A DNA stretch of 47,304 bases from Kineococcus rubinsiae. Its GTDB lineage: Bacteria > Actinomycetota > Actinomycetes > Actinomycetales > Kineococcaceae. The notes beneath the pieces were generated by a model. It saw only the letters and a list, made by a program, of their open reading frames with translations. It searched no databases and had not been told where the DNA came from. The position numbers and the translations under genes are program-made. This document shows positions 26,564-31,796 of the stretch, one piece after another (positions within the stretch are counted from its first letter, which is position 1; every line of letters begins with the position of its first letter). Location of the stretch: the NCBI RefSeq assembly GCF_011839805.1, contig NZ_VWPY01000034.1, positions 1 to 47,304 on the forward strand, read 5' to 3'.

Positions 26564-26872
26564 TCAGAGCTTGATCTCGATGTCGACACCCGCGGGGAGG
26601 TCGAGTCGCATGAGCGAGTCGACCGTCTTCGGCGTGGGGTCGATGATGTCGATGAGGCGCTTGTGCGTGCGCATCTCGAAGTGCTCGCGGCTGTCCTTGT
26701 ACTTGTGCGGCGAGCGGATCACGCAGTAGACGTTCTTCTCGGTCGGCAGCGGCACGGGCCCGGCGACGGAAGCGCCAGTACGGGTCACCGTGTCGACGAT
26801 CTTGCGCGCCGAGCTGTCGATGACCTCGTGGTCGTAGGCCTTGAGCCTGATGCGGATCTTCTGTCCCGCCAT
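26564..26872 (-). CDS. rpsJ: 30S ribosomal protein uS10 (NusE)
   Basis: The 102-residue uS10 belongs to the 30S head and also acts as NusE, linking NusG-bound RNA polymerase to ribosomes. It reads [40 protein letters not shown] and [20 protein letters not shown]. It opens the S10 block. Its 400-nt upstream region holds the tuf terminator and the leader element shared with rpsL. Confidence 0.98.
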
Positions 26873-26941: not shown

Positions 26942-26971
26942 CCGACCCCCGAGGTCGGGCGTGTCGTGCTC
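26942..26971 (-). promoter_or_regulatory. Leader element shared with rpsL, copy 1 (rpsJ leader)
   Basis: On the minus strand it starts GAGCACGACACGCCCGACC and ends GGGGGTCGG. It is 28/30 identical to 31673-31702. CCGACC and GGTCGG can form a 6-bp stem with a 5-nt loop, and one of the two differences is in that loop. It ends 69 nt before the rpsJ start codon. Function unknown. Confidence 0.6.
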
Positions 26972-28504: not shown

Positions 28505-28523
28505 CCCGACCCGGTGGGTCGGG
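28505..28523 (-). promoter_or_regulatory. Hairpin in fusA-tuf spacer
   Basis: CCCGACCC-GGT-GGGTCGGG forms a perfect 8-bp stem 30 nt upstream of the tuf GTG. It contains the same CCGACC/GGTCGG stem as the rpsL and rpsJ leader elements. It may be a leader structure or an intra-operon attenuator. Confidence 0.4.
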
Positions 28524-28588
28524 AGGGTGGGTGTCCGGCCCACCGTGTGGTGGCCCAGATGGTGTTCTGCCGTGCCCTGCTGGGGGTG

Positions 28589-30753: not shown

Positions 30754-31224
30754 TCACCAGCGGTAGTGCGCGAAGGCCCGGTTCGACTCGGCCATCTTGT
30801 GGGTGTCCTCGCGGCGCTTCACCGCGGCACCGAGGCCGTTGGACGCGTCGAGGATCTCGTTGAGCAGGCGCTCGGTCATCGTCTTCTCGCGACGCTGCCG
30901 GGAGTAGCCGACGAGCCAGCGCAGCGCGAGCGTCGTGGAACGGCTCGGGCGCACCTCGATCGGCACCTGGTAGGTCGACCCGCCGACGCGGCGGGAACGG
31001 ACTTCGAGCGCCGGCTTGACGTTGTCGAGGGCGCGCTTGAGGACGACGACCGGGTCGCCGCCCGTCTTGTCGCGCGTGCCTTCGAGAGCGCCGTAGACGA
31101 TGCTCTCCGCGACGGACTTCTTGCCGTCGAGGAGGATCTTGTTGACGAGCTGCGTCACCAGGGGGGACTGGTAGACGGGGTCCACCACGAGGGGACGCTT
31201 GGGTGCGGGGCCCTTGCGGGGCAT
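30754..31224 (-). CDS. rpsG: 30S ribosomal protein uS7
   Basis: The 156-residue uS7 starts assembly of the 30S head and lies at the E site; in E. coli it represses the str operon. It has [60 protein letters not shown] and [20 protein letters not shown]. Its ATG overlaps the rpsL stop (TGATG). No S7 binding site could be recognised in the one-base junction, unlike the long rpsL-rpsG spacer of E. coli. Confidence 0.98.
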
Positions 31225-31598
31225 CAGCTCTTCTCCTTCTTCGCGCCGTAGCGGCTGCGCGCCTGCTTGCGGTTCTTGACACCCTGCGTGTCCAGCGAGC
31301 CGCGGACGATCTTGTAGCGGACACCGGGGAGGTCCTTCACGCGGCCGCCGCGCACCAGGACCATCGAGTGCTCCTGGAGGTTGTGGCCCACGCCCGGGAT
31401 GTAGGCCGTGACCTCGATGCCGCTCGTGAGCTTCACGCGCGCCACCTTGCGCAGCGCGGAGTTCGGCTTCTTGGGCGTCGTGGTGTACACGCGGGTGCAG
31501 ACACCGCGGCGCTGGGGGCTGCCCTTGAGAGCGGGGGTCTTGGTCTTGACGACCTTGTCCTCCCGGCCCTTGCGGACCAGCTGCTGGATCGTAGGCAC
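31224..31598 (-). CDS. rpsL: 30S ribosomal protein uS12
   Basis: The 124-residue uS12 monitors decoding. [17 protein letters not shown] (Lys43) and [20 protein letters not shown] (Lys88) keep the residues whose changes give streptomycin resistance, so the protein looks wild type. The GTG start reads [14 protein letters not shown], with GGAGACAGG upstream. It opens the str block with a strong promoter at 31768-31796 and a leader of about 160 nt holding the shared 30-bp element. Confidence 0.98.
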
Positions 31599-31672: not shown

Positions 31673-31702
31673 CCGACCCACGAGGTCGGGCGTGTCGTTC
31701 TC
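31673..31702 (-). promoter_or_regulatory. Leader element shared with rpsJ, copy 2 (rpsL leader)
   Basis: On the minus strand it starts GAGAACGACACGCCCGACC and ends GTGGGTCGG, 28/30 identical to 26942-26971. It lies about 60 nt downstream of the predicted transcription start and ends 74 nt before the rpsL start codon. CCGACC/GGTCGG can form a hairpin with loop TCGTG. Function unknown. Confidence 0.6.
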
Positions 31703-31767: not shown

Positions 31768-31796
31768 AATCTACCTGCTGGGCAGGAGAGGGTCAA
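31768..31796 (-). promoter_or_regulatory. str-block (rpsL) promoter
   Basis: TTGACC (31791-31796), a 17-nt spacer, then TAGATT (31768-31773) on the minus strand: a near-ideal housekeeping promoter. The -35 lies within CCGTTTTGACCCT, shared with the rplM promoter. A second TTGACA lies downstream near 31756 but lacks a good -10. Confidence 0.8.

Follow-up and report, generated by a model that had tools for sequence, protein, structure and literature searches.

In Streptomyces, WhiA is known for sporulation. A WhiA operator has been described before the rpsJ operon of Mycoplasma gallisepticum, where the protein binds the core GAYACRCY with a repressive effect, according to EMSA, MST, reporter and knockdown experiments (Fisunov et al., 2024; PMC11701221). 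The main text of that paper places the core before rpsJ in the majority of the whiA-bearing species examined, from several phyla, followed in some clades by a clade-specific auxiliary motif downstream. The HTH domain of WhiA binds the core and its homing-endonuclease-like (HEN) domain binds the downstream motif, from which it is released by ATP, and Mycoplasma WhiA is reported as an ATP sensor (PMC11701221). In S. venezuelae, Bush et al. (2013; PMC3781837) list rpsJ among the WhiA ChIP-seq targets, with a peak 75 bp before the start codon (their Table 1) and, as the columns read, P values of 4.5E-11 in vegetative growth and 8.0E-06 in mid-sporulation; expression of rpsJ was lower in the whiA mutant. 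The sign of regulation differs between the main texts of both papers, with repression in PMC11701221 and activation suggested in PMC3781837. According to Bush et al., the specificity of WhiA must also depend on determinants other than GACAC (PMC3781837).

In Escherichia coli, the str and S10 operons are controlled through leaders recognised by uS7 and uL4, respectively, which are described as RNA targets bound by a product of the operon, with separate regulators (PMC10931766, PMC7247131). In the accessible texts of the literature, we found no description of a uS7- or uL4-type leader for the actinomycete str or S10 operons.

A repeated element upstream of rpsL and rpsJ

The window, that is, the whole stretch of 47,304 bases analysed here, contains a direct repeat on its minus strand (31673-31702 and 26942-26971) with 28 of 30 bases identical. 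Its copies end 74 nt before the start codon of rpsL (uS12; 31224..31598, minus strand), the first gene of the str block, and 69 nt before that of rpsJ (uS10; 26564..26872, minus strand), the first gene of the S10 block, confirming the identity and distances given in the first-pass annotation. In a pairwise scan of the window this was the only direct pair of 30-mers with at least 28 identities, and three inverted windows of the same length, sharing a single offset, were also found. The 15-mer ACGACACGCCCGACC occurs in exactly two places of the 4.88-Mb assembly, the rpsL and rpsJ copies, and the pattern ACACGCCCGACCN5GGTCGG, with up to two mismatches, in three places.

Among 213 unique sites, the conserved block is ca. 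25 nt long (YGACACRCCCGASYKCGKGGGTCGG), with sharp borders and unconserved flanks, its first half having been fixed by the search pattern, so that the invariance of this half is partly due to selection. The distance from the 16-nt core of these sites to the start codon ranges from 36 to 180 nt for rpsL and from 37 to 312 nt for rpsJ. By sequence comparison, the 25-bp element of the window is CGACACGCCCGACCTCGTGGGTCGG upstream of rpsL (31673..31697, minus strand) and CGACACGCCCGACCTCGGGGGTCGG upstream of rpsJ (26942..26966, minus strand). Each copy can be divided into a core, GACACGCCCG (31687..31696 for rpsL and 26956..26965 for rpsJ, both minus strand), which we propose as a half-site for the HTH domain of WhiA, and a second half, ACCTCGTGGGTCGG before rpsL (31673..31686, minus strand) and ACCTCGGGGGTCGG before rpsJ (26942..26955, minus strand). 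The proposal for the core follows from its fit to GAYACRCY (PMC11701221) and, for the rpsJ copy, also from the listing of rpsJ as a ChIP target (PMC3781837); for the second half, we infer a half-site for the HEN domain.

Conservation and placement across genomes

The first-pass annotation had pointed to related genomes, and to the spread of copies within a genome, as the places where its proposal could be checked. The element is indeed present at these positions in relatives: at least one site with up to two mismatches to ACACNCCCGACCNCGNGGGTCGG was present in 113 of the 149 genomes sampled evenly from the order, and in an even sample of the class the exact 19-nt sequence GACACRCCCGASYKCGKGG was found in 103 of 128 genomes, at most twice per genome, against a single match of the reversed pattern over all 128. 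Neither is it scattered, because the loci fetched for the class sample contain 133 unique exact sites, of which 129 lie before rpsL (78 sites) or rpsJ (51 sites). The remaining four (in G136, G289, L199 and L265) were not assigned to either gene: the only site of G136 and one of the two in G289 look like chance matches, that of L199 is on a short contig with no S10 or S12 gene placed behind it, and that of L265 is at the end of the fetched stretch. These four sites might speak for a chance repeat, or for a coding or compositional artefact of a GC-rich genome, as might the look-alikes with one mismatch in fusA, which we rejected as a coding coincidence, being codons for the EF-G motif DTPG. Nevertheless, such an origin of the element is refuted by the genes downstream of the 129 sites and by the reversed-pattern control, and its probability is negligible.

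At the level of the phylum (even sample of 119 genomes, one mismatch), 14 genomes had a match, including 9 of the 10 from the same class. Among named Actinomycetota loci, collected through S12 and hence independently of the element, 27 of 43 had GACACRCCCG in front of rpsL; of the 25 that included the rpsJ leader, 18 had it there. The corresponding figures for other phyla were 1 of 36 and 0 of 10. The word was found at both genes in loci of Streptomyces, Micromonospora, Nocardioides, Knoellia, Cellulomonas and Demequina, at rpsL only in those of Klenkia, Thermocatellispora, Spongiactinospora and Nonomuraea, at rpsJ only in those of Brevibacterium, Nesterenkonia, Agromyces, Frigoribacterium and Rhodoglobus, and at neither gene in two Acidimicrobiia loci (L066 and L067). 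The orientation of this word was constant: among unique leaders, in a set partly chosen for the element, it was in sense in 117 of 192 for rpsL and 118 of 166 for rpsJ and in antisense in none of either, and the reversed word appeared in none and one, respectively. In G368:C3 (L218, L219), rpsJ and rpsL are ca. 115 kb apart and the element is kept at each of them.

A probable WhiA operator

The first eight bases of the element (GACACRCC) agree with the published WhiA core GAYACRCY at all eight positions, and both copies of the window contain GACACGCC. The centre of the 25-mer falls 72-77 bp before rpsJ in ten leaders of the Streptomyces type, namely L040 and L069 (Streptomyces) and eight of family f5, which we take to be Streptomycetaceae, S. 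venezuelae not being among the named loci. By this comparison the rpsJ site matches the reported WhiA target. The repeat had originally been annotated as not recognisable as any named element, a view superseded by its fit to the core of PMC11701221 and by the listing of rpsJ in PMC3781837 as a WhiA ChIP-seq target at a matching distance.

The window genome encodes an intact WhiA with all three Pfam domains (WhiA_N, LAGLIDADG_WhiA and HTH_WhiA), which matches the solved chains 8dy7, 8dy9 and 3hyi. The model TIGR00647 matched 58 of 60 genomes tested, including all 55 in the class; the two misses, in other classes, are weak evidence, because the control in Bacillus subtilis, where WhiA is described, was also negative. 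The presence of whiA does not discriminate, since it occurs in element-bearing and element-lacking genomes of the class alike.

The conservation, specificity and fixed orientation of the element, the intact whiA gene, the fit of the core and the fit to the ChIP distance in Streptomyces are the basis for considering it an operator. We thus regard the 25-bp element as most probably a bipartite WhiA operator common to the str (rpsL-rpsG-fusA-tuf) and S10 (rpsJ onwards) operons, and we infer that WhiA binds both sites in this organism. The pentamer GACAC is common (15,116 copies), and the site could instead be an operator for another transcription factor, or for a partner of WhiA (a WhiB-like protein, for instance), that overlaps it; this is quite improbable, given that the agreement at eight of eight core positions and the ChIP distance at rpsJ fit WhiA itself.

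As in the rpsJ operator of Mollicutes and Firmicutes, the putative WhiA operator would combine GAYACRCY before rpsJ with a clade-specific motif downstream, contacted by the HTH and HEN domains, respectively, the role of the latter being a proposal in our case; it departs from the system presented in the main text of PMC11701221 in that the second half is GC-rich, whereas the auxiliary motif there resembles a -35 box, in its probable location inside a transcribed leader, and in having a copy at rpsL as well. With the Streptomyces sites it shares the internal GACAC and the rpsJ target at 75 bp. However, the main text of PMC3781837 reports that nothing apart from GACAC was over-represented and that its orientation was not fixed, and makes no mention of rpsL, whereas here 25 bp and the orientation are fixed and rpsL has a copy. 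The fixed orientation, set beside the lack of a consistent one for GACAC in that text, counts against the operator. What looks new, because we did not find it in the literature, supplements aside, is the copy at rpsL, the bipartite form of 25 bp, the constancy of orientation and the probable in-leader position; rpsL is absent from the main texts of both PMC11701221 and PMC3781837.

Position of the element in the leader

A promoter-like sequence, TTGACC-17-TAGATT, is situated upstream of the rpsL element (31768..31796, minus strand; one found in the scan, 0.3 expected), which would place the element ca. 65 nt into the predicted transcript; nothing was found in the scan before the rpsJ copy of the window. 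In 111 rpsL leaders from across the genomes, promoter-like sequences clustered 90-180 nt before the element, with 80 hits where shuffles gave 4.6. A weaker cluster was seen 150-180 nt before the element in 102 rpsJ leaders, with 20 hits and 2.1 in shuffles. A plain count of TANNNT repeated the peak for rpsL and showed none for rpsJ. Judging by these promoter predictions, transcription probably includes the rpsL element and may include that of rpsJ. This counts against the operator reading, in that the site seems to be downstream of the promoter, unlike the -35-like auxiliary motif of Firmicutes and Mollicutes. The accessible text of PMC6599336 indicates that transcription starts were determined for its promoters, rpsJ included, and in that of PMC2904383 we found none.

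A promoter downstream of the element was discarded for the long-form leaders, which showed no clear excess, and in 21 listed rpsJ loci none exceeded the shuffles (p 0.10 or more). We also rejected TTGC-N17..19-TGGCANAAT, a promoter-like sequence that closely follows the core in six loci of the Microbacteriaceae type; it looks alike in the six and has per-locus p values of 0.12-0.79 against shuffles.

The hairpin and the possibility of an RNA element

The probable transcription of the element, with promoter-like clusters that are less clear at rpsJ, and the presence of the strict core on the sense strand in every case would also be expected if the 5′ leader carried an RNA element that is recognised by a ribosomal or other RNA-binding protein and co-regulates the translation or stability of the str and S10 mRNAs. 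The CCGACC/GGTCGG hairpin noted in the first-pass annotation can form in both copies of the window, and the folding energies of ten long-form copies were -11 to -13 kcal/mol (z -0.5 to -1.5). Each of the six pairs of the hairpin is kept in 77-98% of the 213 unique sites (83, 79 and 77% for pairs 7-23, 10-20 and 11-19), but neither mutual information nor pair counts over these sites revealed any covariation. For a CCCG/CGKG pairing, pair 7-16 holds in 69% and the others vary in at most one site, being uninformative; a CACGC/GCGTG helix and an outer CGAC/GTCG helix were rejected by eye. Additionally, ten leaders of the f47, f60 and L058/L060/L062 types keep GACACGCCCG, lack the hairpin and fold like shuffles (z -0.2 to 1.7). 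Since the second halves vary by family and folding is no better than that of shuffles, the hairpin is, on the sequences compared, a property of one version of the second half, the first half being the constant part. It is thus a structure that can form and not what is conserved in the element.

No Rfam match was obtained at the leaders, and comparisons of primary sequence with the 23S rRNA of this genome and the 16S rRNA of a relative gave no same-sense similarity above shuffles; antisense matches in eight gapped comparisons (shuffle fractions 0.01-0.11 for 23S and 0.09-0.33 for 16S) were taken as chance. Genome G000 has a complete 23S rRNA gene, and no 16S rRNA gene was found in its assembly. 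A covarying structure, a resemblance to an rRNA site and a curated RNA family were therefore all three lacking, and the main texts of PMC11701221 and PMC3781837 already provide a DNA-binding protein with this core at rpsJ, which makes an RNA element unlikely. A ribosomal-protein-binding or processing site, as suggested in the first-pass annotation, has no support from covariation, Rfam or rRNA, and the hairpin is dispensable in other clades; its more general idea of a shared coordinating element holds in that one element marks str and S10, with a single protein, not an RNA element, as the best reading. The controlled operons would be the same two as in E. coli, with the difference that here there is no conserved structure and one site is shared.

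A candidate third copy in the fusA-tuf spacer (28506-28528, minus strand), the remaining match of the pattern ACACGCCCGACCN5GGTCGG, was rejected, having six mismatches to the consensus and mainly the hairpin in common; the tuf leaders printed for other loci have 7-10 mismatches. This spacer contains a perfect CCGACCC-ACC-GGGTCGG hairpin, absent from those leaders.

Variation in the second half and in WhiA

Thirty genomes lacking the exact long form, including three from other classes, were searched, and the S10 gene was found in 27 and the S12 gene in 26. GAYACRCY was present before rpsJ in 16 of 27 in sense and in 2 in antisense, and before rpsL in 7 of 26 in sense and in 4 in antisense; the stricter GACACGCCCG preceded 14 of 27 rpsJ and 5 of 26 rpsL genes. 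Near-long forms, which missed the pattern by one or a few bases, account for four of these five rpsL sites and for the rpsJ sites of G167 and G119. The other twelve rpsJ sites with GACACGCCCG have a different second half, linked to the family in 11 of them: TCCTCGGG in four sites of f54, GGTTTGC or GGTTGC in three of f60, GATTA or GATTC in four of f47, and ATGGCGGG in one of f46 (G210). Similarly, the named loci L058, L060 and L062 have GGTTGCAGC. As would be anticipated for a WhiA operator, there is thus, at the sequence level, a clade-specific motif downstream of the core in f47, f54, f60 and these three named loci. No core was found before rpsJ in the three f83 genomes G285, G301 and G375, and the f46 genome G151 has none.

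Taking the WhiA of the window genome as the reference, identity in the HEN and HTH domains was 72-79% and 78-85% in nine other long-form genomes, 70-72% and 73-77% in five genomes of f83, 66-69% and 76-81% in four of f54, 41-52% and 65-76% in seven of f47 and f60, and 50-62% and 59-80% in four of f46. The larger drop in the HEN than in the HTH domain where the second half differs fits a HEN domain that reads the variable half; identity in the HTH domain also drops in diverged clades, so that the divergence of the HEN domain may be general. The f46 genomes would fit badly with such a pairing, because G119 has a near-long second half before rpsJ with only 52% HEN identity and G151, at 53%, has no core; the conserved WhiA of f83, with no core before rpsJ, argues against the involvement of WhiA.

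The rpsJ leaders of L058, L060, L062, L295, L296 and L300 contain, by eye, a near-palindrome of the type GGATCACTGCC-A-GGCAGTGCA downstream of the core. Likewise, those of L301-L304 (f47) contain an inverted repeat of the type GGCTCGC...GCGAGC with an A/T-rich loop, possibly a separate leader element.

A putative mode of action

We propose that the C-terminal HTH domain of WhiA would recognise GACACRCCCG, with the N-terminal LAGLIDADG HEN domain gripping the downstream half, which is ASYKCGKGGGTCGG in most actinomycetes sampled and other sequences in some clades. A single WhiA protein would adjust str and S10 jointly, with the energy state as a plausible signal, because Mycoplasma WhiA is reported to sense ATP. 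At an in-leader site, WhiA might act as a promoter-proximal block or as a regulator of RNA polymerase, either repressing, like the Mycoplasma protein, or activating, as has been proposed for S. venezuelae. We put forward more tentatively, as a somewhat doubtful extension, that an ATP-sensing WhiA couples str and S10 throughout the actinomycetes via extended bipartite in-leader sites, acting on RNA polymerase past the promoter, and that its HTH domain reads the invariant half while its HEN domain co-evolves with the clade-specific half, which would be the missing determinant of WhiA specificity. The 25-bp rpsL and rpsJ sites are natural candidates for the determinants beyond GACAC, and the clade-specific second halves are ready-made test pairs. 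If true, the two main ribosomal-protein operons would be regulated by WhiA across the whole class, possibly in connection with the energy state, suggesting how actinomycetes control str and S10.

GACACRCCCG occurs twice, at a spacing of 78-275 bp, in six rpsJ leaders (L107, L064, L292, L044, L057 and L164). Between the copies of L107 there is, by eye, a promoter-like sequence, an arrangement that would allow looping by a two-domain protein.
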